From Linum tenue (taxonomy: Eukaryota > Streptophyta > Magnoliopsida > Malpighiales > Linaceae): DNA of 64,000 nucleotides. Positions within the stretch are counted from its first letter, which is position 1. The number at the start of each line of letters is the position of its first letter. The stretch lies in NCBI GenBank assembly GCA_946122785.1, contig CAMGYJ010000006.1, positions 53,712,066-53,776,065 on the forward strand, read 5' to 3'. A program made the translations under genes and the position numbers. This document shows positions 14,127-63,700 of this stretch, piece after piece. The notes under the pieces were generated by a model. The model did no database searches, was not told the origin of the DNA, and was given only the letters and a program-made list of their open reading frames with translations.

Positions 14127-14223
14127 CAAACATCAGAGTTTTTTCCAATAATAGCACCCTAAAAAAAAAATTACAAAACAAGCACACATATGAAAAAAAA
14201 GACAGAAATAGCACCTATTTTTT

Positions 14224-14546
14224 TGGACCGCACCTGCACGATGCGTTTTATAGGTGAACCGCACGTGAAGGACGCAGTTTACTTATAAACCGCATCGTGC
14301 AGGTGCGGTCCCCATTACAAAACGCAGGCCAACGCAGCGATCCACGCCAGCTGCGGAACGGTCTTCAAGACCGTCAGATGGTGAGGCGATCTGACGGTAG
14401 ACCGCCTGCCAGCGGAGCGATCCGCGCCAAGCCACCCAGACCGCACGCCCGAGATGCGGTCAAACCTAGGGAAACGTAAACCGCAGCGGGAGGGAGCGGT
14501 TTCTGTTAGTGCAAAATTACAAGACCGCCCCTTGGGGGTGCGGTCT
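14224..14546. repeat. MULE A left palindrome array
   Basis: Roughly seven imperfect palindromes in tandem. Examples are CCGCATCGTGCAGGTGCGG (14286-14310 region), a longer one around ACCGTCAGA/TCTGACGGT (14370-14400), and ACCGCCCCTTGGGGGTGCGG (14524-14543). Arms read CCGCA(C/T) one way and (G/A)TGCGG the other. The array ends 6 bp before the TATA box at 14553. Confidence 0.8.
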
Positions 14547-14552
14547 GATGCG

Positions 14553-14560
14553 TATAAATA
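14553..14560 (+). promoter_or_regulatory. MULE A left inward TATA box
   Basis: TATAAATA follows the last palindrome of the left array directly and precedes a C-rich tract and a CT-rich leader. MULE B has the same order at 60725 (array, TATAAATA, C-run, leader), so this is probably the promoter of a lost element gene. Confidence 0.65.
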
Positions 14561-14670
14561 CCCCCCCTCCCCCCCTCATTTCTTCACACCACAACCCATT
14601 CTTCCTCCTCTCTCTACAATTTATCTCTCTAAACCCTCCCCTCCCAAAAGCCTAGGAAATAGTGGTCTGT

Positions 14671-14705
14671 TGGTTGCGGCTAAGTCCGATCTGCCATCAG
14701 AAAAC
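14671..14705 (+). other. leader block shared by MULE A and MULE B
   Basis: TGGTTGCGGCTAAGTCCGAT followed by CTGCCATCAGAAA recurs at 60838-60871 in MULE B with few changes. It lies in the same position, downstream of TATA and the CT-rich leader. It has no long reading frame, so it is probably a conserved 5' untranslated exon. Confidence 0.7.
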
Positions 14706-14721
14706 ATTTCTTAGGTAGGAA

Positions 14722-14941
14722 TGTTCATGGCATAAAAAGTAACACAAAATAAACTTACGAGTTAATGTTAATGGCATAAAAAGTAACACAAAATAAACTT
14801 ACGAGTTAATGTTAATGGCATAAAAAGTAACACAAAATAAACTTACGAGTTAATGTTAATGGCATAAAAAGTAACACAAAATAAACTTACGAGTTAATCT
14901 TAATGGCATAAAAAGTAACACAAAATAAACTTACGAGTTAA
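14722..14941. repeat. five 44-bp tandem repeats inside MULE A
   Basis: Five nearly identical units start at 14722, 14766, 14810, 14854 and 14898 (TGTTAATGGCATAAAAAGTA, then ACACAAAATAAACTTACGAG, then TTAA), with a partial sixth at 14942. On the minus strand each contains CTCGTAAGT, a perfect plant 5' splice-donor consensus, which may be a relic of an intron start that was amplified. Confidence 0.9.
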
Positions 14942-15035
14942 TCTTAATGGCAAACAAACTAAATAAATATAGATATACAACAGAAAAATGAAAGAGAGAA
15001 TGAGAGGTGTGAAGAGTAGAGGTTTTCCGGCAAGT

Positions 15036-15043
15036 CTTATATA
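15036..15043 (-). promoter_or_regulatory. MULE A right inward TATA box
   Basis: On the minus strand TATATAAG lies about 16 bp inside the right palindrome array. This is the expected position of a mudrA promoter. The equivalent site in MULE B is at 63253-63260, upstream of a real mudrA fragment. Confidence 0.6.
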
Positions 15044-15058
15044 GGGAAAAAATTGTGC

Positions 15059-15436
15059 AAAACCGCACCTCTAGGGTGCGGTTTTAGTCTGCCATGCAGC
15101 CCTACGTCCATAATTCTCTGCATGCTGTGTCGGGTGTCGGAAAATTATTGACATGTAAACCGCACTTGGGGGGTGCGGTCTACATGGCCAAACCGCACCT
15201 TAGAGATGCGGTTTGTTCTTGGAGGCAGAAACCGCATCTCTAAGGTGCGGTTTAGGTAGGTCAGGCCTAAACCGCACCTCGGCCATGCGTTTCATGTAGG
15301 CCAGACATGAAAACGCATGGCCCAGGTGCGGTTTAGGCCCACCAGTATTGACCGCACCCTCCAGCTGCGGTTTACATTTAAAACGCACCTGGGGGATGCG
15401 TTTTATATGTAAACCGCACCTGGAGGGTGCGGTTAA
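15059..15436. repeat. MULE A right palindrome array (nine hairpins)
   Basis: Nine successive palindromes of about 25 bp are separated by 6-16 bp. Examples: CCGCACCTCTAGGGTGCGG, CCGCACCTTAGAGATGCGG, CCGCATCTCTAAGGTGCGG, CCGCACCTGGAGGGTGCGG. Loops differ while the arms stay almost constant. GCACCC/GGGTGC outer repeats follow up to the element end. Confidence 0.88.
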
Positions 15437-15532
15437 TAAAAAAGGGTGCTAGTTTTGTAAATATTTTTGGGCGGGTGCTAGTTTTGTAATTTTTTTTTAG
15501 GGTGCTATTTCTGGAAAAAACTCCAAACATCA

Positions 15533-16779: not shown

Positions 16780-16805
16780 GTCACTAGTATAGGTGTCAAA
16801 ACATA

Positions 16806-17022
16806 GCCCGACCCGATTAACCCGCCCGATAAACCCAACCCGCAACCCGACCGCAACCCGAATTGACTAAAAGTCAACAACCCGTAACCCGCCCGACCCG
16901 CAACCCGATTGACCCGCAACCCAACTAACCCGCAACCCGACAGACCCGCAACCCGACTGACCCGCAACCCGATTAACCCGAACCCGATTGACCCGAACCC
17001 GACTAACACGTAATCCGACCGA
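16806..17022. repeat. hAT left subterminal array
   Basis: About 20 tandem copies of a degenerate ACCCGCAACCCGA-type motif (for example AACCCGACAGACCCGCAACC). All are C-rich on the plus strand. Subterminal repeats of this kind usually bind hAT transposase. Confidence 0.85.
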
Positions 17023-17800
17023 GTCAACCTGAATTTCATCTAATCCACTTGAATAATTATAAAAATATACAATACATAGTTTTTCAAAATAAAGTTTTTC
17101 ATTCTAAACTTAAGTAAAATTATTTTTTCATTTCGTATAGGAAATTTAAAAAATATGAAACTCACTTGATATTACGTATTTTAAGAAAATTATAAAAGTT
17201 GAAACATGAAGGTCACTTGAGATCATGACAATATTAATATAATATATAAATTATAATTTTGGTTAATTTAACTATTCAATAAAATTATCAATTAAATATA
17301 AAGTAAAGTAATGTAATATATTTGGTAATTTGATGTTTTTAAAAAGAAGAGGGAAATTTTGGTGTATTCAAGTTTTTGGGAAGAGAAAGAAGAGGGAAAT
17401 TTGGTTCCTGAAATTTTTTTAGAAAAGAAACAAGTGGGAATTTTGGTGGTTTTGATATGTGGGAAGAGAAAGAAGTGGGAAAGTTTGATTCTTTTAATTA
17501 TGAAAGAGAAATAAGGAGGGAAACTTTTGAGTTTTCAACTTTTTGTAGAAGAAAAGAAGAGGGTAATTTGGTTCTTTCAATTTTATGGAAGAGAAAGAGG
17601 AGGGAAATTTTGAGTTTTTCTAATGTATGGAAGGAGAAAGAAAGAGGAAAATTTTAGTATTTTTTTTGAAAAGAAAGAAGGAAACATATTTGGTGTTTTC
17701 AATTTTTTGGTTTTTCATAATTTTAGCTTTTGAAATATGAATCTTTAACTTTTATATGGAGGACATGACTAGTTAAAATTAATCTTATATGCTTTGAAGG

Positions 17801-17802
<2 letters not shown>

Positions 17803-17849
<47 letters not shown>
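17803..17849. repeat. (TA)n microsatellite
   Basis: An uninterrupted TA dinucleotide tract of about 45 bp lies inside the hAT element. Confidence 0.95.
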
Positions 17850-17851
<2 letters not shown>

Positions 17852-18957
17852 GTTTATGGACTAATAAATAAATTAACCATTAGTTACAACAATTTATACT
17901 AAACTTGATAAGTAATCTTTGACAGTTCGTTGTTTAGGATATAAAGTATATGGTTAGGGTATAAGGTATAGGGTATAAGGTACATATGGTTTAGGGTGTA
18001 TATGGTTAGGGTATAAGATATTGATGGTTTTGACGGTTCTAAGTTTTTTAATTAACATATGTTCACTTGAAGTCATTTGAAGTCTTTAACGGCAGGAGAT
18101 CCCTTTTTAATTTATGTTTATGGTACGTGGTTAGGGTACAAGGTATGTGGTGAAGTATAGGATATATGGTTAGGGTATAACAATTAGCAAATATCACTTT
18201 TTATCTATGTTTTGAAAATAAAAGTATGAATTTCACTTTTAAATTAACTATACTAGCAAAATCACAACTCAAGGACATATGGTTAGGGTATAGGGTATAG
18301 GTTATGTGGTTAGTGTATAATGTATTGATGGTTTAGGATCTACAATCAACAACATATACTAACTTAATATTGTTGATTGAGGGTAAGACCAAGTGTATAG
18401 GATATATGCTATTGAGTAAGTTATGATTGAAGTCACAATAATTTTACTAAATTTGATAGCTAATCTTTAATGGTTCAATTTTTAAGATAATTCGAACAAT
18501 TTTACAAATAACTTGTTTGACAACAATTTACTGAAGTTATTTGTGCAATGAGTTATTTCGAAATAACTCCTTTTATCACTATGCTTTTGCCAAATACCAC
18601 ACGCCAAATACCAGATTTGCATGGTTATACTAAACGAGGTACTTTAATCCAATTACTACTGAATTAATACTAAAATATCAAATAAACAATTAATGGTGTC
18701 TTTTGGTTGCAAATATTGATATCACCATTACTATTAGCTATAATACTTTACCAATTATGATTAATTACATAACAAGTTTGCAAGTCATACAAATTGATTT
18801 AACATTTTTACTAGTTTTTTTCAAAAGAATAAAGTATATATATACGAGGTAGAAATAAATTGGTTAAAAAGTTGAGAAAATATTTTAAATTAGTGTAATA
18901 AAATGTGTAAGTTGGTAATGAGTAATGAGTTAAGTTACTTGATGCGCTGGCCCTAAC

Positions 18958-19092
18958 AACCCGAAACCCGATCCGCCCGCAACCCGCCCGACATAAAACC
19001 CGATGAACCCGCAACCCGATTGAACCCGAACCCGATGAACCCGCAACCCGTTTGAACCCGAACCCGATTGAACCCAGTCCGAACCCGCCCGA
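18958..19092. repeat. hAT right subterminal array
   Basis: Tandem AACCCGAACCCGATGAACCC-type units, again C-rich on the plus strand and so in the same orientation as the left array, although the 12-bp termini are inverted. Confidence 0.85.
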
Positions 19093-19112
19093 TTGACACC
19101 TATAGTTACTAG

Positions 19113-21795: not shown

Positions 21796-21804
21796 CTAAC
21801 ATTA

Positions 21805-22682
21805 GGACTTTGCTACGGTGACTTGCAAGTAAGTCTTCATAACTTGGACGAAACGGTCGACCTCTTCATTGATATGGTTGACCTATTTGAAAAAAAATGG
21901 TCGACCTCTTTGTTGGAATGATCGACCAGATGTACAATTTTTCATATTTCTATGTTCAACAAAAGGTCGACCACTTTACAAGAAAACGGTCTACCACTTT
22001 TATTAAGTGGTCTACCTCTTTCACTTAGCGGTCCACCGCTTTCAATAACCCGTCGACCTAATGAATCGTTTCTAGTGATATAATGATAAATAATTAGAGT
22101 CCAATAATAATAGATACGCTTGCTAGTAAGAGATTTAAAATTAGGACAAAGACTGCATTTGCAAGCATAGATAACAAGTTTCTTGAGTGATTATTCTTCC
22201 GTAGATTTGGAAAATGTTTTGCATATGTATTTCTTATATTTGACCTACTCTACAGAGACTTTCATATTTCCTTCAATTTTTAAGTTTGTTTTTCTTATCC
22301 TATAATTGTCTTGTGATGTATCTTTGTTGTTATTGTCGTTATCAAAATGCCCAAAAAGTGGAGTATAATACTTATACAATTGTTATGAAGGTAAGTGTGT
22401 CATCAGGTCGGCCCATTTCTGGAAGCGGTAGACCAATTGATTCAAGTGGTGGACCATTTTCTTGGAAAATGGTCCACCATTTGGTGGAAGAGATCGACCA
22501 CTTGAAGGTAAGTTTGTCATCAGGTCGATCCATTTTCGGAAGGGGTAGACCGGTTGACTCAAGTGGTAGACCACTAGTGAAAGAGGTCAAACATTTTCTT
22601 TGAAAGTGGTCAACCACTTAATAAAAGAGGTCATCCGTTTTCTCCAAGTTACGGTGACTTGCAAGTCATCGTAGGCATACCC
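21805..22682. mobile_element. MULE C: non-autonomous Mutator-like element with GGTCGACC palindromes
   Basis: 878 bp with a perfect 9-bp duplication CTAACATTA at 21796-21804 and 22683-22691. Inverted ends of about 60 bp share GACTTGCAAGT, TAACTTGGA and GACCTCTT blocks. Inside are two arrays: 21850-22065 with GGTCGACC, GGTCTACC and GGTCCACC, and 22395-22635 with AAGTGGTAGACCACTA and ATGGTCCACCAT type palindromes. The 9-bp duplication and the architecture place it with MULEs A and B. No coding sequence was recognised. Confidence 0.8.
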
Positions 22683-23629: not shown

Positions 23630-23989
23630 CTTTTTGATAACACTGAATTTGCACATGTTTTTACCCCTCATTTTTTGATTGTTTAGCGTGGTTTTTATCA
23701 GACTTTGGCCTATTTTAGGCTAGGTTGTGTTACTTTGTCATATTTCAGGTCCTAGCATGTAAAGTGAAGCATAGGCGCAAGTTTCAATTCAATCGGAGAT
23801 GAATTAGCGACTCGGGGGAAGAAATGACCCAAGGAAGAATGGATTTATACCTCATTATATGGAAAAAGAATCATGTCATTTAGGCATGAAAAGAAAGAGA
23901 ACGAGACTACGAGCGCCTGGGATCAAGCGGCGACGGATTCGGAGTTTGGATCAGGGAGAAAGGACCAAAAGACAGCAGCCTCTTTAAAG

Positions 23990-24135
23990 TTACTGGTTGA
24001 CTTTCAAAGTTACGGTTCATACCGTAACTTTGCCATTTTGGCCATAACTCTGGCCCCGGTAAGCAGAACGCATTCTAAAGTTACGGGCAACCTTCAAAGT
24101 TACAGGCTGGCCATAACTTTGCCCGTAACTTGGCA
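23990..24135. repeat. palindrome array of the solo LTR (GTTACGG/CCGTAAC)
   Basis: Tandem inverted motifs: AAAGTTACGG then CCGTAACTTTG across a 5-bp loop (24007-24033), then several single AAGTTACGGGC and GCCCGTAACTTGG copies up to 24132. It ends about 15 bp before the TATA box. Confidence 0.8.
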
Positions 24136-24146: not shown

Positions 24147-24154
24147 TATAAATG
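24147..24154 (+). promoter_or_regulatory. TATA box of the solo LTR
   Basis: TATAAATG follows the palindrome array and is about 70 bp upstream of an ACCCTAGAGAGAGAGCACC leader, the usual look of a plant LTR transcription start region. Confidence 0.6.
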
Positions 24155-29980: not shown

Positions 29981-31333
29981 TGACACGCTAAAACACAACA
30001 CCAAACTGCGACCAAGTGTAATCGCAGTTCGGAAATGCAGTAACAGGCAAGCTCTATTGTCAACCCGGGGTCTAGATCTACTGCCTACTCCATGTATATT
30101 TGTTATCTAGCAAACTAAGTCGATTGATTGTGGTTTTAACTAAAAGCAGTAAGAAAGCAGGAAATGGTTCGGTTTTCTAAAGCAAAGGAAGAGTCACTCG
30201 GGAATGAGTCCCCCTAGCTCCTTAGTTAGGTCTCAGTTGTAATTACCCTGAGTTGATTTATTATTGATTAAACTGCAGAAGATCCGACAGTAGCTTGGAA
30301 TCTCTTAAGCTGACCAAGCCCTCTCAGGCAGGCTAACCGGCAGGTGACTAACCTTCACCGGGATAGACTGCTGAGGCAATAAGCACAGAACTCCACTACT
30401 GGAATTGGGTTCCAGTACAAAGCAGTAGATTAATTAACTCTCGTATAACCAATCTACCACTACCGATTGATGAAGCTCTAACAACCTAATCAGATTCTAT
30501 CTATCTCAGGTTGCAGCAGAAATCAAGAAAATATGATCAGGCTTTAATTGACTCAATGAATCATGCATCAATCGATTAAAATCAAACAGTATAACAATCT
30601 CAAGTCATTACAATCAAGATCCCTAACACTTGGAACTAGGGTTCTTCATACCCAAGTGAGAGAAGGTTCTACTCCATAGAGAGAGAGGGAAACAGAATAC
30701 AAAGCAGTCATACTCATAACAATGGGAAGAATCTGCTCTGGGATGATGATCTTCACTCCAAGGATGATTTCCATGCTTGATTGATGAAACCCAGCTCCAA
30801 AAACCACTCTTAGGTGGTGTTTTCGCACTTTCTCTCTCTAGGGCTCTGTTTTTGCTCCAAAAAGTCGATTCCCTCTCCTTTGGCTCGAATCTGCCTCAAA
30901 AACCCGATTCTGGGCGAATTATGGGCTGAATTACGGTCGTAATCATGGCATGCCCGTAAATCGCCCGAAACGCGCGTTTAACTTATCTATGAGGAAGGGA
31001 ATTACGGTCGTAATTTCCCAATTATTGCCAGTAATTATCGAATTACGACCGTGGTTACTGTGACTCTTGCCCGTAATTGACTCTGCGACAGGAATTTTGG
31101 GGAATTAGGCTCGGCATTGCATTTATGGGCAAGATAGGAGCAATTACGACCGTAATTGGTCAGGCTCTGCCCGTAATTTTCATCCTGATCCGCCAACTGA
31201 CCTCCAAATGACCCGAAACTTGCGCCTATACACCTCTTTACTTGCTAGGACCTGAAATACGACAAAACAATACAACCTAGCGTAAAATAGGCCAAGGAAC
31301 AACAAATTCGAGCTAAAATGGTCAGGGAACAAG
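29981..31333 (-). repeat. 3' LTR of the Athila-type element
   Basis: It starts TGACACGCTAAAACACAAC (plus strand). Similarity to the solo LTR at 54192-54886 extends to about 31333 (GAGCTAAAATGG, then GGGAACAAGA), so its outer end of some 50 bp with the terminal CA is missing and the upstream 3' ORF runs straight into it. It contains the AATTACG/CGTAATT array at 30915-31180. Confidence 0.85.
30915..31180. repeat. palindrome array in the Athila-type LTR (AATTACG/CGTAATT)
   Basis: Repeated AATTACGGTCGTAATT and AATTACGACCGTAATT units (7-bp arms, 2-bp centre), plus half-sites TGCCCGTAATT. It lies between the conserved GGCGCAAGTTTCGGGTC block and the CCCTAGAGAGAGAAAGTGC leader of the minus-strand LTR, hence in the promoter region. 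Confidence 0.85.
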
Positions 31334-31938
31334 ATGGAGGTTGTCTTCCTCCTGCTGATGGAGTGCAGGCAGTGCAAGGTGCGGAGCTGAAGATGACTGG
31401 TGGAGCCATCGCTGGGGGTGTAAGATTTCCCCAACAGCTGGTTGAGGATGCGCCACTCTGGGCGCAGCTGAGTAGCCGTGGTGTAGCCTGGTGTGAACAC
31501 AGCGCCTGCGAACTCCGGTAGGCAGATCCTCTCGAAGAATTGCTGGTCCCGAAAGATGGGACAGTCGTTCTGTTCGATGGCCAGGTGGCAGGCGAATGGT
31601 GGAAGGAGCCCCAGTGCCCGACCGAAGTCATCATAGCTGAGGGAGTAAGACTCCCCGCCAAGTCGGAACTGAATGGCGTTGCTGTGCTCGCCCGCGTGGG
31701 TTCGGAAGTGCACGAAGGGGGCATAGAACTCCCAGAGGAGCTCCTGATAAATAGGCTCAGTGAGGCAGAGGAGGCGGCGCCAAGAGTAAGCGCGGATGGC
31801 AGCCTCCATTGCCTCGCGAGCACCCAGCTCCACGAAGACCTCAAAATCGAGGTAATGGTGCTGAACGACTTTGCGGCGTCGGATGTCCCGCAGAGTCTTT
31901 CTCTGGTCGGCGTCGAGCATGTTCAGGTAAGTGTTCAT
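31334..31938 (-). CDS. Athila-type 3' ORF (env-position ORF), C-terminally truncated
   Basis: It starts MNTYLNMLDADQRKTLRDIR at 31938 and has VVQHHYLDFEVFVELGAREA, then FVHFRTHAGEHSNAIQFRLG and YDDFGRALGLLPPFACHL. ORFs of this kind lie between pol and the 3' LTR in Athila and related plant elements and are annotated as 'putative plant transposon protein' or env-like; the function is unknown. After SISRRKTTS the frame runs into LTR sequence (to a stop near 31180) because a deletion has joined the ORF to the LTR. About 200 residues of real ORF remain, with no stop inside. I saw no clear membrane segment in the part left. Confidence 0.65.
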
Positions 31939-32809
31939 GGTCCTTCAGCCAAAAAGCAACAAAAACACTACAACATACATGGAAATTTGTCAACGGTGAG
32001 TACACAATCATCCGCACCCGGGGCCCTCGAATCATAAAATTCGGACAGTGGACTAGGCCCCAAGGGAGGAAAAACAGTCAAAACCATTCACCATCCACAC
32101 AAAATTAAACGCACTTGGAGCCCTCGGATAATAAACCCGGACATCAAATTAGGCTCCAAGTGGGACAATCACAAACACATGCTGCCCGGTAGGCCAACCA
32201 AAGTAGTAACAACAAAGCATGCAATACCGTAGGCCTACCGAATTCATTCAAGCACAACCCAATCCCCAAATTCCCTCACTTAAACCCATCATATCAATCC
32301 ACCACAAATCACAAGTAAAAATAGAGAAGCGCACCTGGAGGCACAAGAAGATATCGCGGGGAAGGTGCGGGAAGAGGGGGACGCAACGACAATCGCCGGG
32401 AAACTCGCCGGAGTTTCATCTCCGGCGACTTCACCACCTCCCAACTGACCCAAAACTTTGGGGAATGAGGGCCCGGATGCCAGGAACGCAGTGGTGGTCG
32501 CGGTTTTTCGATTGGAGGCCGGAGGAGGGAGATCGGGCCGGAAGAATACCGAAGAGTTGCAGTTTTCCGGCAATCCAAACCACCGCCAAACCCGACCCCA
32601 CTGGTATAGGCTTGTGCGTGCCGACGAGAGGAGCACGGGAGTGGTTTCGGATTTTAATTTGGAGCTCCAGTGAGGGAGTTATGGCCGGAAAACCACCTGA
32701 GAAGGAGGGAGGGCGATTTTCCGGTGAAGGAGAGAGAGAGAGGGGCGACCAGAAAAATGAGGAGAGAGAGGGAGATTATGGGCGTCGCCCGAAATTTAAA
32801 TCTCAGGGG
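31939..32809 (-). other. spacer upstream of the Athila-type 3' ORF
   Basis: Non-coding on the minus strand as far as I can see. Two related segments (GGGGCCCTCGAATCATAAAA at 32020 and TTGGAGCCCTCGGATAATAA at 32114) suggest a local duplication of about 95 bp. Open frames on the plus strand at 32219-32893 are antisense and carry no recognisable motif. Confidence 0.5.
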
Positions 32810-32810
32810 G

Positions 32811-33045
32811 CAATTACGGGCAGAATTACGACCGTAATTGCCCCAATTCAGCCCGTAATTGCAACGCCGCGAGCCAACTGCCCCCTGTGCTAATTACGGG
32901 CAAAATTAGGACCGTAATTGGTCTGATCCTGCCCGTAATTGCACTGCCGAGACCAATCTCCTCTTCTGGCTTAATTAGGGGCAGGGGCATGACAAATTAC
33001 GACTGTAATTGCTCCCCCTTTGCCCGTAATTACACTGTCGAGAGA
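32811..33045. repeat. three tandem ~78-bp units carrying the LTR palindrome outside the LTR
   Basis: Units begin near 32811, 32891 and 32970. Each has AATTACGGGCA (or a variant), a central AATTACGACCGTAATTG and a TGCCCGTAATTGCA half-site, then GCCGAGA-like sequence. The same motif set forms the array in this element's LTR (30915-31180). Its place between pol and the 3' ORF would suit an internal promoter for that ORF. Confidence 0.75.
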
Positions 33046-40246: not shown

Positions 40247-40277
<31 letters not shown>

Positions 40278-41278
40278 GGGGAGTTCTACGGTACCCCGGG
40301 TGAAATTCGGGGTACCGCATACCTTAAGTAAGAAAACACTATCTAGAACTTGAATTGACTGATCTTTCGGACATTATACTATACTATAACCCATAAAGAT
40401 CAAAATCTAGGTCTTAATTCTCTAAATCTTATATCCCAAGATCAATTTAATTAGAAATAATAATCGACGGTTATGATTCGTCCAAATATAGGCAAAAAAA
40501 GTAATGCTCCATCTTAGGGTTTATAGTTTATGATTTAGATAATTAGGACCTAAGGTTCACTCATTAAGGGTTAGGGTATAGTATCATGCCCAAAAATCAT
40601 GCTAATTCGAGGTCCATATATATATATATGTATATATATGGTGCCTTCTACGGTACCCCGGGTGAAAATCGGGGTACCGCATACCTTGAGTATGAAAACG
40701 CTATCTAGACCTCGAATTAGCAGGATTTTTGGGCATGATACTATACCCTAACCCTTAATGAGTGAACCCTAGGTCCTAATTATCTAAATCATAAACTATA
40801 AACCCTAAGATGGTGCATTGACTTTTTGCCTATATTTGGACGAATCATAACCGTCGATTATTATTTCTATATATATATATATGGGGAGTTCTATGGTACC
40901 CAGGGTGAAATTCGGGGTACCGCATACCTTGAGTAAGAAAACGCTATCCAGAACTTGAATTGACTGATCTTTCGGACATGATACTATACTCTAACCCTTA
41001 AAGATCAAAATCTAGGTCTTAATTCTCTAAATCTTATACCCCAAGATCAGTTTAATTAGAAACAATAATCGACGGTTATGATTCGTCCAAATATAGGCAA
41101 AAAGTCAATGCACCATCTTAGGTTTATGATTTTGATAATTGGGACCTAGGGTTCACTCATTAAGGGTTAGGGTATAGTATAATTCCCAAAAATCCTGCTA
41201 ATTCGAGGTCTAGATAGCATTTTCATACTAAAGGTATGCGGTACCCCGGATTTAACCCGGGGTACCATAGAAGGCACC
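40278..41278. mobile_element. cluster of three hairpin-ended MITE units in the 5' LTR
   Basis: Unit 1 at 40278-40616 (right end missing), unit 2 at 40640-40867 (inverted, one end missing) and unit 3 at 40881-41278 (complete). They are separated and flanked by (TA)n. Each intact end has a hairpin GGTACCCCG, a 9-bp loop, CGGGGTACC (for example 40290-40316). Shared internal blocks are GCATGATACTATACCCTAAC, AACCGTCGATTATTATTTC and GGGTTAGGGTATAGTAT. Coding capacity is nil. Insertion into TA microsatellites resembles rice Micron-type elements. Confidence 0.8.
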
Positions 41279-41501
41279 ATATATATATATATAACGTGGG
41301 CAAAGGAGAGAGTTGTGTCAGAGAAGCATAAAAAAAAAGAAAGGAAACCAAGTCCTCTGGTTGTGTATGTGTTTGTAATAGCAAGAGCCAAAAACTTAAG
41401 GCCTTGTTGTTTGAGTGTTTCTTAAATTGAGTGATTAAACACCATGTTTCCTTTGTGTTGATCCTAAATCATACCACATTTCCGCTAATACCCAACAAAT
41501 T

Positions 41502-46252: not shown

Positions 46253-47309
46253 ACGTGGGCAAAGCAGAGAGTTGTGTCAGAGAAGCATAAAAAAAAAGAA
46301 AGGAAACCAAGTCCTCTGGTTGTGTATCTGTTTGTAATAGCAAGAGACTTAAGGCCTTGTTTGTTTGAGTGTTTCTTAAATTGAGTGATTAAACACCATG
46401 TTTCCTTTGTGTTGATCCTAAATCATACCACATTTCCGCTAATACCCAACAAAGTTGTGGTTAGCCTTATACAAGTTATCTGGTTTTTTGAATGAAGAAT
46501 TTGGACTCAGATTTTTCACTTAGAAGCCATACAATTTGTAAGGATGAATTACACGATTGGTCACCCAAATTACATAAATATTTCACGTTTGCCACCCGAA
46601 TTACAAACCTTGCTTATTGGTCCCTCACTTTACGAAACATTTCACCGTAGCCACTGGACGTCAGCCTCCGTCAGTTAACGGCGTCAGATTTTTGATGACG
46701 TGGCAAACGAAAAATCTGACTGGGCCGACAGAAAGGCTGAATCAGCCTGAATACCCGAGCCAGCAAAGCACCCGACCCGGAAAAGGACGGAGCCCATTCT
46801 TTTTATTTATTTTTACTTTGCTTTAATTATTCTTTTTTTTTACGGATGAAGAACCCGATTCCCCTTCTTCTTTCCTCTTGTCGTGCTTTCCTTCTTCCTC
46901 CCTTTCTTCACTCCAGCAGAGCGTGCAGGGGAGAGTCGGCCGGCAGGAGACATACAGGGGAGGTACAGGTGAGGAGCAAAAAAGCCCAATCTTCATCGTC
47001 TTCCTTCCTTCCTTCCTTCTTCTTATACTACTCGTTCTTATATTGTGGTGAGAAGGACAGAAACCCTAGAATCGTGACCTGAAGAACAATCTCCCAATTC
47101 GCTACTCCAACTTGCATCTGTGGTGTTCTGGCGGCAAGAAAGCAGAACCCAAAGGTGATAAAGTCATTTTTCGTCTTCCTTTTGCATTGGGAAAGGGATT
47201 CGATATGGACGAAAGGGAAAAGGGAAAAGGGGAAAAGTCGCCATCTCTTTATTCGATTTTCACTGTATCTTGTCATTTTCCAGGTTGCTGGTCACGTTTG
47301 TGAAGCAAT

Positions 47310-48026
47310 ATGGTGGGACATGTGCGGCAACCGAATGCTCCTATCCCCAAATATGGTGAGGTTCTTGTCTTTATGGAGTAATGTCAGTTGCATCATTGTT
47401 TATTAGGTTGAAAACATGTGGATGGCTTTTGAATAGAATAAGCATTCATTTTGTCTTCATTGCATTTGCTGTTTAGCTGATGGGTTGGTGTAGTCTCTTT
47501 ATTACTAGTACATACTACTGTTGGTTGATATATGCATGATATATGCAGTAGCTAACATGTATCCTTTTCTAATACCTTTCTTTGGATTCTTTTTATTCAA
47601 ACAGGTAAATTTAGTGATGAATTTAGCTTTGAAGTACACTTGGACTATGAAATCGAAAAGAAGGGTGCGAAGAAATTTATGAAGGATAACTCTCTGGTTT
47701 ACTATGATTATGCTGATGTTGATAAGTTGTCTGTCCTCGACTTGCCGGATATCTACAAGGAGTGTGGTGGGAAGCAGACAAATCCAAAATTTTTTTGGAA
47801 AGCTCCATTAGAAGAAACAATGATGGAGATTACTAAAGATGAAGACTTGATGGAGATGGCATCAACAGCTAATCAACCTCCTAGGATTATCGAGTTGTAT
47901 GCTATGGCTAATGAGGAAGTTGAAGATGTTTTGGAGAGTGATGCTGAGGATGATGAATCTAGATATAGGCAAGATGATGGAATAGAAGTACAGAATGCCA
48001 CCCCTCATTATGAATGGCTCTTTTGA
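47310..48026 (+). CDS. MULE-derived PB1-like domain protein (mudrA N-terminal type), two exons
   Basis: Exons 47310-47355 and 47605-48026 (GT-AG, in phase) give 155 aa. The start MVGHVRQPNAPIPKYG leads into FSDEFSFEVHLDYEIEKKG, YYDYADVDKLSVLDLPDIYK and NPKFFWKAPLEETMMEITKD, then PPRIIELYAMANEEV and an acidic tail. This follows the PB1-like all-beta domain at the N-terminus of many plant MULE transposases (a recollected family pattern, moderate certainty). The stop comes well before any DNA-binding or catalytic domain, so it is a truncated transposase or a co-opted small protein. The frame is intact, and the gene faces the GRF gene. Confidence 0.6.
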
Positions 48027-48385
48027 GTAGCTTAGTTGTCAAACTTTCCCAGGTGTTCAGTGAAGATGAATGGCTATTTTGAGTAGCTCAGTCGTAAAAC
48101 TTTCACAGTTGTTTAGTAAAGATGAATGGCTCTTTTGAGTAGCTCAGTTGTAGATGTTTAGTAAAGATGAATGGCTTTTGTTTCCAATATATGGTGTCCG
48201 GTTATGGTCTGATCAAGGTGGTACAAAATAAAGGAAAATGACATTGGAGTGGCCTTGGTGAAAAGAAAAACAATATTACAGTGGTACAGATGAAAGGAAA
48301 ACAACATTCTAGTAGTACAGATGAAAGAAAAATATTATTCTAGTGATACCAATGAAACATCATATTCTTCTTCTAACACACATTG

Positions 48386-48769
48386 CTACTTTCCCAGCAG
48401 AATGAAAACAACAACAAGGACTACAACAGTGAGGATGGAAGCCATTTTGAAGCTTATTTTGTATGCTCCCCTCGGTTGTCTTCTCTCTAACTCTATTATA
48501 CGACGATGGAAATTCTGAACAATGCATCTCATATGCTCATCAAGAGCTGGGTCATACCATCGAAAATAATTGCATGCTCTGTTCGTCTTCATAACAAAAC
48601 ACAATGAGAATCGTTAGAATGGTCAGATTCTAAAACACTAAAAGAAAGGAGAATCAGATTGTCTTACCCCAAACTTGCTACATCCATAGAATCTCCGTCC
48701 AGGATTGGCATCGGTCCAGCTAGTCCTTAAATCAGTTGGGTACCCACAGTGACAACATGGAGTAGCCAT
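48386..48769 (-). CDS. GRF zinc-finger protein with C-terminal membrane segment, two exons
   Basis: Exons 48769-48668 and 48586-48386 (GT-AG, phase 0) give 100 aa. The order is MATPCCHCGYPTDLRTSWTD, NPGRRFYGCSKFG and CNYFRWYDPALDEHMRC, i.e. a complete GRF-type zinc finger with the Cys-His-Cys-Cys spacing and the RRFYGC and FRWYDP signatures. A short coiled helix RIIELERRQPRG follows, then a hydrophobic tail MASILTVVVLVVVFILLG before the stop, probably a tail anchor. Such small GRF proteins are frequent in plant genomes and near MULEs. The gene lies wholly inside MULE D, so it is either captured or part of the element. Confidence 0.75.
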
Positions 48770-49255
48770 TACTCAGATCGACAGTCTCCAAATAGCACTT
48801 TGTGTTGAAGAAGACGAGGAAGAAGATAGAGAAGGACAAGGAAAAAGATAGAGAAGGACGTTGAAGGAAAATGGAAGCCAGAAGAAGATAGAGAAGCAGG
48901 CAGAAGGAAAATGGAGATGGGAAGAGTCTTTTGGAGGAAAAACCATTTAAATATGTAAAACTCATTCAAAATGACAGAGAAAATGGGGGGAAATGATTTT
49001 TCCCGCCCATTCCATGTCAGCACCTACTTTACGAAATTATTCAGCCTTTCTGTCGGCCCAGTCAGATTTTTCGTTTGCCACATCATCAAAAATCTGACGC
49101 CGTTAACGGAGTCTGACGGAGGCTGACGTCCAGTGGCTACGGTGAAATGTTTCGTAAAGTGAGTGACCAATAAGCAAGGTTTGTAATTCGGGTGGCAAAC
49201 ATGAAATATTTATGTAATTTGGTTGACCAATCGTGTAATTCATCCCAATTTGTAA

Positions 49256-49817: not shown

Positions 49818-51382
49818 TGACTCGCAGGAAACTACACCATAAATTAATCCCTACTAGAGCCAAAGTTTTTAAACTCTAACCGGGTGCAGTATAGAAAAAG
49901 TATTTAAATTGTCAACCCGGGCCGATCCATGTACCCCTAATTCAATCCCTTAAGTTGTTATCTAGCAAAAACGGTTTTGGGTTTTTAAACTAAGAAAACT
50001 ACAAATGAAACAAGCAAAGAAAAGTAAATAAAGGAAAATTCTAACTAAGGGAGCTTCACCCAGGAGTTGCTTCCCCCTAACTAGCTACCGTGACTCGCTG
50101 GATTGAAACGATTGCTATGGAAAAGGTAACCGCGAACCGCAGAGGGATGCAAATATGGTCGTAGACCACAATCTCAATTGCTAAACCGAGGTAAACATTA
50201 TAGGCCGTGTCACTCGGCCCTCTCGGTTTAGGCAATCGGTGGTTGACTTACTCCCTCACTCAACTCAAGGGTTGGACGGCTTAATCGCGCTTAACCAATT
50301 TGCTTAATTCAACATTGAGGTTTGCCCTAAATTAACCTAGTTAGGTGGCTTAAAAAGCTAAAGGAAAACCAACTCGATTGAGTCTCCCTTGGAAGGGGGA
50401 TTTTCCTCTCTAAGCTAGGTTAAAGTGGCTAATAAGATTACAAAGCACCTACATGCACAAACCTAAGGATGCTAAGCACAATTATGCACAATCCTTAGGT
50501 TGCTAAGCACCAACATGCACAAACCTAAGTATGCTAAGCACAAAACATGCACAACCCTTAGATTGCTAAGCACAAGCATGCACAATCAACATGAATAATA
50601 CATCAATCAATCGTTGAATTAAACAATACCAAATGACAATCATTCAATCTACACAAGTAATTACAAAGTATTAGTTAGGGATATACAACACCCAAGAGAA
50701 AAGAGTGAGTGAGAGAGGGATTACAAATTTGAGCTCAAGATCTTCTTCTTCTTCTAGGCTTGAATCTCCACCTAATCCTCCAATGATGCTCCAAGATCAC
50801 TCTAGCACTCTCTCTCTCTCTCACACACTAGAACTCCCATTTGGTGTTTTAGGTTGAAACCCTAGAGAAAGAAAGTGTTCATTCTCCAAAAACCAGCTCT
50901 CCCTTTCTCTCTCTCCGCTGGTGTCTTCATATTTGCCCGAAAGTGATCAATTCATGGACGCGTTGGCCAGTTCACGGCCGTGAACACCAAAACGCGTCCG
51001 TGAACTCAGTCGTCTCCAAAATGCACCGCTTTGCTTCCTAGGTTCACGGTCAATGGCCCCAGTTCACGGGCTTAGAGACCGTCAACTCGCCTGGCGCCAG
51101 TAACTTCGGATTTCGCCCTGGACGCCTTGATGTTCATGGCCCATGAACTCGCCTGCCTTGTCCGACCGTGAACTGCGGCTGTTTCTCAGACTTTTCTTTG
51201 GTTTTTGCGCTTTTTGACCTCCAATTATCCCAAAATTTGACCTCGGTCCTTCCACACGTGGCAGGACTTGAAACATATCAAAACAAGCACAACCTAGCAT
51301 GAAATATGTCGAGGAACGATAAAATACTAAGCTAAACGAATAAGAAATTAGGGGTAAAATGTCTACATTTGAGCCCGAATCA
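49818..51382 (-). repeat. 3' LTR of the 49818-57284 element
   Basis: 1565 bp. It includes a small tandem repeat of CTAAGCACAATTATGCACAA type (about 50440-50585), an (AG/CT)n leader near 50800-50920, and the GTTCACGG/CCGTGAAC array at 50935-51180. It ends GAATCA directly before the C-run. Confidence 0.9.
50935..51180. repeat. palindrome array GTTCACGG/CCGTGAAC (copy in the 3' LTR)
   Basis: It contains a perfect 16-bp palindrome GTTCACGGCCGTGAAC (50970-50985) and further half-sites CCGTGAACTC, GTTCACGGTC, GTTCACGGGC and CATGGCCCATGAAC. The 5' LTR has the equivalent at 56795-57095 with more substitutions. Confidence 0.85.
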
Positions 51383-54191: not shown

Positions 54192-54886
54192 TGATAGCAT
54201 CGTATTTGCACATGTTTGCACTCTTGTTTCCTAGCCATTTTAGCTCCTAATTGTGGTTTCTTGGCCAATTTTACGCTAGGTTGTGTTGTTTTGTCGTATC
54301 TCAGGTCCTAGCAAGTAAATGGATGCATAGGCGCAAGTTTCGGGTCATTTGGAGGTCAGTTGGCGATTCAATATGCAAATTACAGGCATCCCTTGCCCAA
54401 TTACGGGCATAATTGGTTATACGAGAGTTAATCGATTTACTGCTTTGTACTGGAATCCAATTCCAGTAGTGGAGTTCTGTGTTTATTGCCTCAGCAGTTT
54501 ATCCCGGTGAAGGCTAGTTGCCTGCCGGTTAGTCTGCCTGAGAGGGCTTGGTCAGCTTAAGCGATTCCAAGCTACTGTCGGATCTTCCGCAATTTAGTCA
54601 ACTGTTAATCAACCCAGGGTAATTACAACCTTGACCTAACTAAGGAGCTAGGGGGACTCATTCCCGAGTGACTCTCCCCTTGCTAAAGAACTTTGAACCA
54701 TTTCCTGCTTTCTTACTACTTTTACTTAAAATCACAATCACTCGACTTAGTGTGCTAGATAATAGATAATCACGAAGTAGGCAGTTGATCTAGACCCCGG
54801 GTTGACAAATAGAGCTTGCCACTTTACTGCATTTCCGGACTGCGATTACACTTGGTCGCAGTTTGGTGTTGTGTTTTAGCGTGTCA
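54192..54886 (+). mobile_element. nested solo LTR of the 29981-39559 Athila family, internally deleted
   Basis: 695 bp from TGATAGCATCGTATTTGCAC to GTTTTAGCGTGTCA, in the opposite orientation to the host element. The 5-bp duplication CTGTT lies at 54187-54191 and 54887-54891. It matches the LTRs at 29981 and 23635 at both ends, but lacks most of the middle, including nearly all of the palindrome array (only AATTACGGGC half-sites remain at 54400). Confidence 0.9.
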
Positions 54887-55626: not shown

Positions 55627-55647
55627 CGTGGTTCCACGCCAAAAACT
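55627..55647 (-). promoter_or_regulatory. primer-binding region with unusual sequence
   Basis: Just inside the 5' LTR the minus strand reads AGTTTTTGGCGTGGAACCAC. The first bases (TTTTTGGCG) match the related fragment at 4290-4305 (TTTTTGGCGCCA), but the rest departs from the Asp-tRNA site of the 29981-39559 element. Either another tRNA primes it or the site has decayed. Confidence 0.5.
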
Positions 55648-57284
55648 TGACTCGCATGAAACTTTACCACAAATTAATCCCGACTAGAGCCAAAGTTTTT
55701 AAACTCTAGCCGGGTGCTGTATAGAGCAAGTATTTAAATTGTCAACCTGGGTCGATCCATGTACCCCTACTTCAATCGCTTAAGTTGTTATCCAGCAAAA
55801 CGGTTTTGGGTTTTTAAACTAAGAAAACTACAAATGAAACAATCAAAGAAAAGTAAATAAAGAAAAATTCTAACTAAGGGAGCTTCACCCAGGAGTTGCT
55901 TCTCCCTAACTAGCTACCGTGACTCGCTGGATTGAAAAGATTTATATAGCCAAGGTAACCGCGAACCGCAAAGGGATGCAAATATGGTTGTAGACCGCTA
56001 TCTCAATTGCTAAAGCGAGGTAAACATTATAGGCCGTGTCACTAGGCCCTCTCGGTTTAGGCAATTGGTGGTTGACTTACTCCCTCACTCAAATCAAGGG
56101 TTGGACGGCTTAATCGCGCTTAACCAATTTGCTTAATTCAAGATTGAGATTTGCCCTAAATTAACCTAGTTAGGTGGCTTAAAAAGCTAAAGGAAAACCA
56201 ACTCGATTGAGTCTCCTTTGGAAGTGGGATTTTCCTCTCTAAGCTTGGTTAAAGTGGCTAATTAGATTGCAAAGCACCTACATGCACAAACCTAAGGATG
56301 CTAAGCACAATTATGCACAATCCTTAGGTTGCTAAGCACCAACATGCACAAACCTAAGAATGCTAAGCACAAAACATGCACAACCCTGAGATTGCTAAGC
56401 ACAAGCATGCACAATCAACATGAATAATACCTCAATCATAGAATTAAACAATACCCAATGACAATCATTCAATCTAAACAAGTAATTACAAAGTATTAGT
56501 TAGGGATCTACAACACCCAAGAGAAAAGAGCGAGTTTCTAGAGAGAGAAAGAGGGATTACAAATTTGAGCTCAAGATCTTCTTCTTCTTCTTCTTCTTCT
56601 AGGCTTGAATCTCCACCCAAGCCTCCAATGATGCTCCAAGATCACTCTAGCACTCTCTCTCTCTCTCTCACTAGAACTCCCATTTGGTGTTTTAGGTTGA
56701 AACCCTAGAGAAAGAAAGTGTTCCTTCTCCAAAACCCGTTCTCCCTTTCTCTCTCCCCGATGTTGTCTTCATATTTGCCCGAAAGTGATCAGTTCATAGA
56801 CGCGTTGGCCAGTTCACGACCATGAACACCTAAATGCGTCCGTGAACTCAGTCGTCTCCAAAATGCACCGCTTTGCTTCCTGGGTTCAAGAATGGCCCCA
56901 GTTCACGGGCTTAGAGACCGTGAACTCGCCTGGCGTTAGTAACTTCGGATTTGGCCCTAGACGGCTTGATGTTCACGACCCATGCCTCCTCTTCACGGTC
57001 TCAGAAGACCGGAACTTCCTTCTCCGACCGTGAACTGCGACTGTTTCTTGGACGCCATCACTTCACTGTTACGGGCAATTGTCACGGTCGCTAGTTTTCT
57101 TCGGTTTTTGCGCTTTCTGACCTCCAATTATCCCAAAATCGACCTCTACCCTTCCACACGTTCTAGGACCTGAAATATATCAAAACAATCACAACCTAGC
57201 ATGAAATATGTCGAGGAACGATGAAATACTAAGCTAAACGAGTAAGAAATGAGGAGTAAAATGTGTACATTTGGGCCCGAATCA
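55648..57284 (-). repeat. 5' LTR of the 49818-57284 element
   Basis: 1637 bp, a near copy of 49818-51382. It has the same tandem CTAAGCACAA repeats (56300-56410) and a longer TTC microsatellite (56575-56600). Its palindrome array (56795-57095) has mutated sites and extra sequence (ACTGTTACGGGCAATTGTCA near 57065). Confidence 0.9.
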
Positions 57285-57429
57285 ACTACCATCTCATTCT
57301 TCATAACTTCATCGCCTCATCACTAGGACATTTTCCCCACAAGCCTAGGCTTTACCACCGACCGATTGCCAAGTTCTATCTTCATGCTTGTCAGGGTAAG
57401 GGGACTAAGAACAAGCTCATGATAAATCT

Positions 57430-60113: not shown

Positions 60114-60210
60114 TAAACAATGGGGAAAAATCCCACTGTACACACGTTCTTAAAAAAAATTCCCAAAATACATAAGTTATAAATTTTTTTCTCAAAGTAC
60201 ACATGTTTGG

Positions 60211-60690
60211 CATTCACCGTTTTTGACAAACGCAGTGAAGGATATCACCGCGTTTGACAAAGACGGTGAATATTTCATCGTTTAAAATAAAAACGGTGAC
60301 GTATTCACCACGTTCATCTAAAACGTTGAACTACCAGCGAGGCAATCATCGTTTTAGAGGAACACGGTGAATCAATCACCATTTTAATTAAAAACGGTGA
60401 CATTTAAACCGCGTTTGTCGTCCACGATGAAGCGAAGCGGATCGCTAACGTGGACAAACGCGGGGTATTCACCGCGTTAAACAAACACGGTGAATACCCC
60501 GTGTTTGTTTGCGTCAGCGATCCGCGTCGCTGACGCGTTCACCGTGACCATCGGATGCGGTGAGGCGGGGATCGTGGTTTTCTTCTCAGATCCGACGCCT
60601 CACGCTAAGCCACGTCACTCGATCCGCGCCCTTTCACCGCCCTCAGGAAACGCGGTGCATTCACCGTTTCTGACAGAGGCGGTGAATACC
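60211..60690. repeat. MULE B left palindrome array
   Basis: Tandem 28-30-bp units of the form TCACCG(C)GTTT, 7-9 bp, AAA(G)ACGGTGA: for example TCACCGCGTTTGACAAAGAC then GGTGAA at 60254-60280. The outer part matches the right array, while the inner part (60410-60690) has longer palindromes with CCGCGTTT and AAACGCGG arms. Confidence 0.88.
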
Positions 60691-60724
60691 CCCAGAATTA
60701 ATTCCGCTGATCCCTTCCCCCAAC

Positions 60725-60733
60725 TATAAATAG
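60725..60733 (+). promoter_or_regulatory. MULE B left inward TATA box
   Basis: TATAAATAG lies 35 bp inside the left palindrome array. A C20 run (60740-60759) and a CT-rich leader follow. MULE A has the same order at 14553. Confidence 0.7.
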
Positions 60734-60739
60734 ACCCTT

Positions 60740-60759
60740 CCCCCCCCCCCCCCCCCCCC
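60740..60759. repeat. C20 homopolymer downstream of the MULE B TATA box
   Basis: Twenty C in a row. In MULE A the equivalent place reads CCCCCCCTCCCCCCC, so a C-tract is a shared promoter feature whose length varies. Confidence 0.85.
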
Positions 60760-61083
60760 ACTTACAACTCACACCACAACCATTTCACTTCTTTCTCCCT
60801 CAATTTATCCGCTCTAGTCTCGTTCTAAGTATGCTCTGTGGTTGCGGCTAAGTCCGATCTTCCACATCAGAAAGAATTGCTAGAGTTTGACCCTAAAGCC
60901 CATGTCCCGCTAAGTTCCCGTCCCTTACAAACCTCAACCCGTCGAACCTCTGTCCAGCTTCAGCCAAAAAATAGACGAAGAGGCTCTTCGTGTAGGTTTT
61001 TGGTTTATTTTTTTTAATCGAAACAATTTGATTTTGTGTTTTTTTTTATCAAAACAATCTCTGATTTCATTACTTTTTTATAG

Positions 61084-61615
61084 ATGGGTGCCGAGATATA
61101 CGATCCTTGATTGTATATCCATTATGGCGCAAGGGATGCGAGACTCTTAACCGATCAAGAAGCTCATCGCTCCCGTGCTATTTGGGATAACAATCCGGTA
61201 ATTTGATGATTTATTTGCTCTATTTTATTATTTTCTGAGGTTTTATTTTTCTTTATTTAATCTAATAAATTGATGTTTTTCCTATTTTTTGTAGGAATCA
61301 CTTGTTCCCGTGGTTCATAAAGGGACCACGAACTTGCCCGCTTGGCATCCAAGGTTGGCGCCTTATATAGAGAGGACCGGTTTGGGAATGTTGCAGCATT
61401 TCATGCGGATCGAAATCGACAACGATCTACTTACGGCAATGGCGGAGCGATGGCGTCCCGAAACTCATACGTTCCACCTTCCGGAGGGGGAAATGACGAT
61501 CACCCTCAAAGACGTGGTGATCCTCACCGGGCTGCCTATTTCTAGAGATGCCATCATTGGTTGTATACTGGGACGAAAACAGTCACAGGATTGGACTCCT
61601 CCATTGCTCCCATAA
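61084..61615 (+). pseudogene. plant mobile domain (PMD, MAIN-like) gene fragment
   Basis: Two exons are readable, 61084-61197 and from 61295 (GT-AG, phase 0). The first has a TGA at 61108 after MGAEIYDP and then ARDARLLTDQEAHRSRAIWD. The second reads LVPVVHKGTTNLPAWHPRLA, LGMLQHFMRIEIDNDLLTAM and AERWRPETHTFHLPEGEMTI, then TLKDVVILTGLPI. These are PMD hallmarks ('L.A..ERWRPETHTFHLP.GE.T.TL.DV....GLP') of MAINTENANCE OF MERISTEMS-like proteins, often carried by MULEs. After about residue 90 of exon 2 the frame enters reversed mudrA sequence and stops at 61613. An earlier coding-like stretch (EFDPKAHVPLSSRPLQ, 60890-60960) may be an upstream exon. Confidence 0.85.
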
Positions 61616-62960
61616 GTCTAGGGAGTAAAGCATACGAATCCTCCCAATCACCATACACCTCAGCCATGGCTTTCTGCTTTCCATGCCATGCTTTTTTGTA
61701 CCTTATCGTGTAAGAATGTCGATCCTTCACCTCTGCCATGATAGCTTTCACCTTGATATCTGGTTGTGCTTCTATAAGGTGCTTAATAGTTCTCCCAACT
61801 TTCTTTGCTTTTAGTTGCCTGTGATCTTGGGAAAGTATAGACGAGGAGCATGTGTGGTTCGTCTCAGCTTTGCGAATCACCCAAGCACCCTTTCTCTTCA
61901 TATTTGCAGCCCGCAGTTTCCACGTACAACCCTCTGCATCATGCTTGCATATGACATGTAGTTGTTTACTGTCAAAATATTTTACCTTCCACTCGAAATT
62001 GCGACTCAACGCCTCTTCTGCAAAAGCATCCTGCACAGCGTCTTTCGATGTGAACGCCATACCCACCTCCAAATTGGCCATCGGATTATACACTGGCATA
62101 GGGACAAAGTCGGGGGGATCATTCTGACTATGTAAAAATTGAGTTGGAACCTGTGTGTAATATGGCCTGGGTGCCTCACGAAATGCCGCCTCATCCTTGT
62201 TATCATCAGTATCTTCCTCCTCGGTCACTAATCTCAAATCTTTCTCAGTATCCTCGTCGCTCGACTCGAATGGATAGCTCGGGCCAGAAGGATCAACATG
62301 ACCACGATCACCAACATCGTCTTCTTGCTCATGTGAAGTACGCCCTGATCGAATGGTATTCTCGATTTCAGACCACTCTGGCCCCCAAGCAGGCCATTGA
62401 ACACCATCGGCCTCAACAAAAGGAGCTGGTTGATCAGGTTGCGAGTATTCTTCCGATGGCACCCATCCTGCACTACTACCTCCACCGTAGTTGCTTGAAC
62501 TACCACTCTCTCCGTAACCTCCTGTATAACCACCGCCTTCGTAGTTGCTCGAACTACCACCCCATCCGTACCCTCCTGCAAAACCATCATCATAAGAATA
62601 CTGGTGAGAATGAGATTCACCGATCGCCTCGGTCTCAACATACACCTCTGCAAGCCGGACTTGGTTATCGCTTAGGAACTGTAACATCATCGTAACCGCG
62701 TCATCATCGTTTATGAAAACTTCTTGGTACACGACCCCGCCAGCACTCATGTCTGGATACCGGTAAGTAATTTTGCCAAGTCTCGTCTGTCCGCTCGTAC
62801 AAACCCTGTCTGCACAAATATCACAGAGTTCTTGAAAATTGAATCGGGACTCAATTTTCAGCATAGTGGATTCGCCGTCCTCATAATCAATGCCTATGTC
62901 AGAGTTTTTCACCCTTCCATTCCACCGAATAATAAGCCGAAACTTCTTGAATTTACCCAT
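61554..62960 (-). pseudogene. mudrA transposase, N-terminal half only
   Basis: 468 codons from the ATG at 62960 (MGKFKKFRLIIRWNGRVKN). Residues 1-110 are a PB1-like N-terminal domain. Residues 120-170 are Gly/Tyr/Ser-rich, then acidic to about 265. Residues 300-380 are the MuDR DNA-binding domain (VGMAFTSKDAVQDAFAEEAL, VICKHDAEGCTWKLRA, KAETNHTC). Then HLIEAQPDIKVKAIMAEVKD and YGDWEDSYALLPRLMGAMEE, which precede the MULE DDE domain in the family. The DDE domain is absent because the frame runs into the PMD sequence near 61556. The retained part is open with no stop, and the DNA-binding half could in principle still be made. Confidence 0.9.
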
Positions 62961-63252
62961 ATCTACAATTTACAATAAGTATTTATTAGCTTAAAGACAA
63001 TAAAATTAACCAAAACCATATTGTACAACTAATATTATCCATTTCATAACTAACGTAACATAAATTCAACTAACTAACAACAACATAATACGAAAATTAA
63101 ATCATACTATAACTACTAAAAACATCATTAGACTATAATACGAAAAGTCTCAACATACCAAAAATTCTTGTTCTGTGTATTATGCTCGATTTTGGTTGCT
63201 GAAATTTGAAGAAAGGGGAGTGGTTATGTTTTTACAACTGCTAGTGGTGTGG

Positions 63253-63260
63253 TATTTATA
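63253..63260 (-). promoter_or_regulatory. MULE B right inward TATA box (mudrA promoter)
   Basis: Minus-strand TATAAATA lies 17 bp inside the right palindrome array and about 290 bp upstream of the mudrA ATG. An untranslated exon and an intron probably lie between them. Confidence 0.7.
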
Positions 63261-63276
63261 ACAAAATCTGCCAACT

Positions 63277-63605
63277 ATTCACCGTTTTTGTCGAAAACGG
63301 TGAATACCATCACCGCGTTCGTCTCAAACGGTGAATAATAGGTAGCTATGACCTAATTTTGACCTACCAGGGGTGGGAAACGTGGGAAAAGATAACCGTG
63401 TTACCCTACAACGGTGAATGTATTCACCGTTTTTAACTAAAACGGTGATGTATTCACCGTTCTAATCAAACGCGGTGAATATATCACCGTTTTAGATGAA
63501 CGCGGTGAATACATCACCATTTTTATTTTAAACGGTGAAATATTCACCGTCTTTGTCAAACGCGGTGATATCCTTCACTGCGTTTGTCAAAAACGGTGAA
63601 TGCCA
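63277..63605. repeat. MULE B right palindrome array
   Basis: At least ten TTCACCG...CGGTGAA palindromes in tandem (for example TTCACCGTTTTTGTCGAAAA then CGGTGAA at 63279-63304). Units are separated by about 3-6 bp (TATA, TACA). The outer part mirrors 60211-60390. A block at 63340-63395 (GACCTAATTTTGACCTACCA) breaks the regular pattern. Confidence 0.88.
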
Positions 63606-63700
63606 AACATGTGTACTTTGGGAAATTTTTTTATAACTTATGTATTTTGGGAATTTTTTTTAAGAACGTGTGTACAGTGGGATTTTTTCCCTAAACAATG

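Follow-up and report, generated by a model that had tools for sequence, protein, structure and literature searches.

Why do transposable elements (TEs) of unrelated classes carry tandem arrays of short palindromes, each family with a word of its own? The question is raised by a stretch of 64,000 nt on contig CAMGYJ010000006.1 of Linum tenue (the window), in which six families, each known from a single locus, have such arrays: the Mutator-like elements (MULEs) A, B and C, and the long terminal repeat (LTR) elements X, Y and Z, which, following the label of an earlier note on this sequence, we take to be of Athila type. To the reading that the arrays would be clustered sites for dimeric proteins, marking the promoters of the elements, we give a probability of about one half; from the sequence we infer the protein and its part in activation or anti-silencing. 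The eleven arrays are the following.

14224-14546, plus strand: MULE A left array, half-site ACCGCACC, dyad spacing 5 bp, TATAAATA at 14553
15059-15436, minus strand: MULE A right array, half-site ACCGCACC, TATATAA on the minus strand at 15043-15037, inverted copies among its dyads
60211-60690, plus strand: MULE B left array, half-site TTCACCG, 13-bp spacing (CCG-N13-CGG), TATAAATA at 60725
63277-63605, minus strand: MULE B right array, half-site TTCACCG, 13-bp spacing, TATAAATA on the minus strand at 63260-63253
21850-22065, plus strand: MULE C left array, half-site AGTGGTC, spacing 0, without CGG core, the weakest array
22395-22635, minus strand: MULE C right array, half-site AGTGGTC, without TATAWA
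23985-24135, plus strand: family X LTR array, half-site AAGTTACGG, TATAAAT at 24147, two convergent pairs with gaps of 6 and 5
30915-31180, minus strand: family Y LTR array, half-site AATTACGG, spacing 0, no TATA box found
32810-33040, minus strand: family Y internal array, half-site AATTACGG, between the last pol open reading frame (ORF; ends 33301) and the third ORF
50935-51180, minus strand: family Z LTR array, copy 1, half-site GTTCACGG, no TATA box
56775-57100, minus strand: family Z LTR array, copy 2, with a 23-bp block absent from copy 1

The arrays are real and their words are typical of the family

Inverted word pairs were counted in ten of the arrays and compared with 500 shuffles of each and with six control stretches. 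Nine of the ten exceeded all 500 shuffles, the left array of MULE C being the weak one, and the control stretches held 0 or 1 inverted word pair each. Half-sites and the gaps between them were then scored by consensus matching against 300 shuffles per family, and the half-site counts were above the shuffle maximum in all six families. The tandem palindromes described in the earlier note are thus confirmed, and two arrays, Z LTR copy 2 and the internal array of family Y, are added to its list.

The words recur within a family and differ between families, as had been proposed: no array of another family contains the main word of A, B, Y or Z, the main word of X is less strictly private, and GTGGTC of MULE C has 23 further occurrences elsewhere in the window. 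The widespread CGG/CCG core was also borne out, CGG or CCG being part of the half-site in every family except MULE C. In A, B and Y, a single word is common to arrays of the same element that are otherwise unalignable.

The words differ as a set even between related elements. MULEs A and B are related, judging by a 21-bp block shared in their 5′ untranslated regions, which starts 119 bp (A) and 115 bp (B) past the TATA box starts and has no third occurrence in the window; X, Y and Z likewise have the start of the LTR in common. The main words differ within both groups.

14672-14692, plus strand, and 60840: 21-bp block GGTTGCGGCTAAGTCCGATCT common to MULEs A and B by alignment

Half-sites keep a fixed spacing in four families, and no covariation of the arms was found

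The gap between convergent half-sites was nearly constant in four families: 5 bp in A (12 of 13 pairs), 13 bp in B (15 of 15) and 0 in both Y (7 of 8) and C (4 of 5), whereas shuffles never gave more than two pairs at one gap (maximum 1-2). No fixed spacing was seen in X (2 pairs) or Z (5 pairs). A and B have the skeleton CCG-N13-CGG in common. Between modal-gap dyads, identity was 0.81-0.92 in the half-sites, a value partly built in by the consensus search, as compared with 0.49 (A) and 0.59 (B) in the spacers and 0.31-0.45 in the flanks. A dimeric binding protein would be expected to leave such a footprint, and the fixed spacing in A, B, Y and C supports binding of this kind.

The earlier note had further supposed that the two arms of a palindrome change together. 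Convergent arms were no more alike than randomly paired ones, either in the core (p = 0.47 in A, 1.0 in B, 0.90 in Y, 0.41 in Z and 1.0 in C) or with flanks included (0.97, 0.50, 0.49, 0.47 and 0.85, in the same order), and neither were divergent neighbours (core p = 0.22 in A, 1.0 in B, 1.0 in Y and 0.30 in C); family X had too few pairs for the covariation test. Among departures from consensus in modal-gap dyads, leaving out two B dyads that are inverted copies in the terminal inverted repeats (TIRs), the same change was found in both arms in 1 of 15 cases in A, 0 of 11 in B and 0 of 12 in Y (1 of 38 together). The power to detect covariation in half of the dyads was 0.86 for A, 0.68 for B and 0.07 for Y; compensatory arm change thus fails in A and B, where the power was good, the power outside these two families being low. 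Taken together, a fixed spacing and the lack of arm covariation favour binding sites for a paired protein.

Arrays and promoters

We searched for TATAWA on the appropriate strand within 50 bp past each array. It was present at five of the eleven arrays, 7-38 bp past the last half-site, against a background of 0.036-0.047, paired arrays of one element not being independent; the other six arrays lack it, and among the four LTR arrays only that of X has it. The internal array of family Y, behind which comes a pyrimidine-rich stretch, lies about 870 bp ahead of the third ORF's first ATG. Since no TATAWA was found behind the array in the 50-bp search, we can only infer its use as a probable promoter.

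The dimeric-factor promoter sites proposed earlier are partly supported, by family-typical words at promoters that change as a set from one related element to another and by a fixed spacing in four of the six families; compensatory change is not supported. On the reading preferred here, a dimeric DNA-binding protein would bind each array through a half-site typical of one family. The arrays would mark both inward TIR promoters of the MULEs and, in Y, the LTR and the probable internal promoter, and binding would switch on, or keep unsilenced, mainly the protein's own family. The most likely reader would be encoded by the family itself: in MULEs the MuDR-type transposase or a companion, in LTR elements the product of an accessory ORF. 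The words would drift together, given that the protein and its sites have to go on fitting each other. If this is true, palindromic promoter arrays of the Sirevirus type and motif arrays of the VANDAL type extend to a Ty3/gypsy-type element and to TIR MULEs. Three features of the sequence, namely a fixed spacing of the half-sites, spacers free to vary and arms without correlation, would also serve as a simple test for telling arrays that bind protein from hairpins under selection. The same word at two separate places in one element makes element-specific activation directly testable.

A broader proposal, which we hold to be quite doubtful, is an address code across transposon classes, in which the fast-evolving dimeric protein of each family would read its own half-site and spacing at every promoter, so that each family would wake mainly itself; the word would switch as a set and the geometry outlast the letters. 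Candidates for such proteins are the MuDR-type transposase and the plant mobile domain (PMD) protein of MULE B, and the third ORF of Y.

60123-63691: MULE B, TIR arms 95% complementary over 208 nt, flanking repeat CTAAACAATG (10 bp) including a 9-bp duplication
61295-61561, plus strand: PMD fragment of MULE B (PF10536, E 1.7e-20), reading inward from the left array
61554-62969, minus strand: MuDR-type transposase ORF of MULE B (DBD_Tnp_Mut, PF03108, E 2.9e-06), reading inward from the right array
31180-31944, minus strand: third ORF of family Y, matching Transposase_32 (PF20167) below threshold (E 0.0034; 17.7 bits against a curated cut-off of 45)

The transposase ORF of MULE B and its PMD fragment converge from opposite strands, and the element looks like a deletion derivative. 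Family Y has, on the minus strand, gag, reverse transcriptase and RNase H-like domains in addition to the third ORF, whose end appears to run into the LTR.

Comparison with known systems

Sireviruses carry element-specific palindromes, named repeated motifs (RMs), which were described in 13 elements with a CGG-CCG signature in 12 of them (PMC2829016, Bousios et al. 2010). Copies of the RM number 8 to 32; they cluster in the LTR, ahead of the TATA box, with more of them upstream of ENV. RMs are CpG-enriched and were termed Sirevirus-specific (PMC2829016). The earlier note knew of no common rule of palindrome array plus TATA across MULEs and LTR elements; for LTR elements the novelty has to be given up, as Sirevirus LTRs have it together with the CGG-CCG signature (PMC2829016). 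Family Y repeats this plan of an LTR array and a second array before the third ORF, which by its position would be the counterpart of ENV; it is the only family with extra copies upstream of a gene at the ENV position, and the only LTR element here with a recognised third ORF. The arrays resemble RMs also in CpG content, the observed/expected ratio being above that of the element's own flank in 10 of 11 (the exception is the right array of MULE C). They differ from them in their carriers, a Ty3/gypsy-type element and MULEs as opposed to the Ty1/copia Sireviruses; in the absence of TATA from three of the four LTR arrays; and in the signature, as a strict CGG..CCG dyad occurs only in X and Z, while A and B read CCG..CGG, C has neither, and the seven listed fixed-gap dyads of Y have CGG in at most one arm. 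More generally, cis-regulatory regions of TEs are often arrays of sometimes palindromic repeats (PMC10760457, 2023).

Among MULEs, VANDAL TEs have VANC proteins, whose binding sites are family-specific motif arrays (PMC5735166) and which act in anti-silencing (PMC5735166, PMC10398659). VANDAL motifs are tandem repeats in noncoding regions that evolve synchronously and differ between related families (PMC5735166, PMC10398659). MULEs A and B likewise carry family-specific arrays of short motifs in noncoding sequence, C more weakly so. The VANC motifs described in PMC5735166 and PMC10398659 are single sites (YAGTATTAY; AGTTGTCC/AC), and those of the arrays in Linum tenue are dyads. Pfam scans of 12 ORFs or stretches of the window, only two of them inside A, B or C, gave no VANC-type family.

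The U3 boxes of Tnt1 are repeated, partly symmetrical, located in the LTR promoter and variable between subfamilies. Tnt1 is a Ty1/copia element, unlike the families studied here, and the likeness is one of description. Box I is mentioned in PMC2829016, and the regulatory variability of Tnt1 is cited in PMC10760457.

PMDs have been captured by MULEs, and PMD-carrying Gypsy elements are also described (Ikeda et al. 2017, PMC5418596); the captured domains were speculated to serve anti-silencing (PMC5418596). MULE B agrees with this in carrying a PMD fragment, but the PMDs of MULEs described there (PMC5418596) are fused to transposases, in grasses and Amborella, whereas in MULE B the PMD fragment is separate from the transposase ORF and converges with it. 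A PMD was reported for 57% of Ogre elements, and Athila ORF-1 for 16% of Athila elements (PMC6317226), and a promoter motif was reported for genes needing PMD proteins (PMC7156037).

The general rule thus has close precedents, and we do not claim palindrome arrays of MULEs or Athila elements as unreported. What is added here is the fixed family-specific spacing, the internal array of Y, the word common to unalignable arrays and the difference in folding between MULEs and LTR elements.

Alternative explanations and the folding of the arrays

It is conceivable, if on balance rather unlikely, that host dimeric transcription factors bind the arrays, as proposed for Sirevirus RMs, and that the families recruited different factors. 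Against this stands that A, B, Y and Z each have a main word of their own within one and the same genome, and that even the related MULEs A and B differ in word, so that common host factors fit less well.

Improbable, in our judgement, is that the palindromes were selected for folding, as RNA or cruciform DNA, and feed or evade silencing. Folding energies were compared with 60 shuffles per array: all eleven arrays folded better than the shuffle mean (z -3.5 to -17.8) as compared with three control stretches (0.2 to 1.1), and small RNAs are reported to be in excess on clusters of Sirevirus palindromes, which points the same way (Bousios 2016, as described in PMC10760457). In a second test, half-sites, bare or with 3 bases added, were held fixed and the remainder shuffled. 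With the 3 bases, the six MULE arrays kept an excess of folding (z -4.1 to -8.7), which the five arrays of LTR elements did not show (z -1.0 to +2.3), a split to which core length (7 bp for B and C) and the amount left to shuffle contribute in part; with bare half-sites, X and the internal array of Y gave z -3.0 each. The hairpins suggested in the earlier note are partly supported: in the MULEs the folding goes beyond the extended half-sites, and in LTR elements these account for it. Hairpins, moreover, need neither a fixed spacing nor free spacers, and the absence of covariation in A, B, Y, Z and C and the single matched departure in 38 (A, B and Y) weigh against selection for pairing.

The folding of the MULE arrays may have another origin, as some of their dyads may be inverted duplicates of nearby ones. 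This is suggested by three pairs of A dyads that are inverted copies of one another (0.85-0.91), and by self-inverted alignments from a blastn self-comparison, which overlooked known direct repeats and of which only positive rows were used; yet only about one in two of the A, B and Y dyads has its closest relative in inverted orientation. On the preferred reading of dimeric-protein sites, inverted duplication of some MULE dyads would add hairpin potential as a by-product.

Very improbable is that the dyads are subterminal transposase sites serving transposition, with TATA boxes nearby only because TIRs hold promoters. The arrays of A, B and C do lie in or beside TIRs, MULE B encodes a MuDR-type DNA-binding domain, and subterminal direct-repeat arrays occur also in the element at 16785-19110, but the arrays of the LTR elements and the internal array of Y are left unexplained, and MULE D has long TIRs and yet no palindrome array was found on reading its sequence. 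Least probable of all is neutral turnover, by which slippage, inverted duplication and gene conversion would spread a word without binding function, as spacers are only about half identical while half-sites and spacing are kept, and the same word stands at two places of Y that are otherwise unalignable.

Elements and minor observations

Mutator-like elements have TIRs and produce a target duplication of about 9 bp. MULEs A, B and C have TIRs and direct repeats of 11, 10 and 9 bp, respectively, each containing a 9-bp repeat.

14136-15523: MULE A, short element with TIRs, flanking direct repeat TCCAAACATCA (11 bp) including a 9-bp duplication
21805-22682: MULE C, short element, flanking repeat CTAACATTA (9 bp)

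The middle of MULE A (14720-14952) is a 44-bp tandem repeat of about five copies with 98% matches. MULE D (46542-49245) has near-identical TIRs of about 200 bp, a 10-bp flanking repeat and an ORF without Pfam match. Both Z LTR copies have 31/62-bp tandem repeats downstream of the array (50435-50585 and 56262-56414), and a Y LTR copy at 54222-54886 is inverted, lacks the middle and has few half-sites left.

The element at 16785-19110, which we take to be hAT-like by its ends (ATAGGTGTCAA/TTGACACCTAT), has 16-bp direct repeats of the ACCCGCAACCCGACTG type near both ends, forming a subterminal direct-repeat array. The LTR region of a copia element (40257-41293) contains nested inverted and direct repeats with ends of the CTACGGTACCCCGGGTGAA type.

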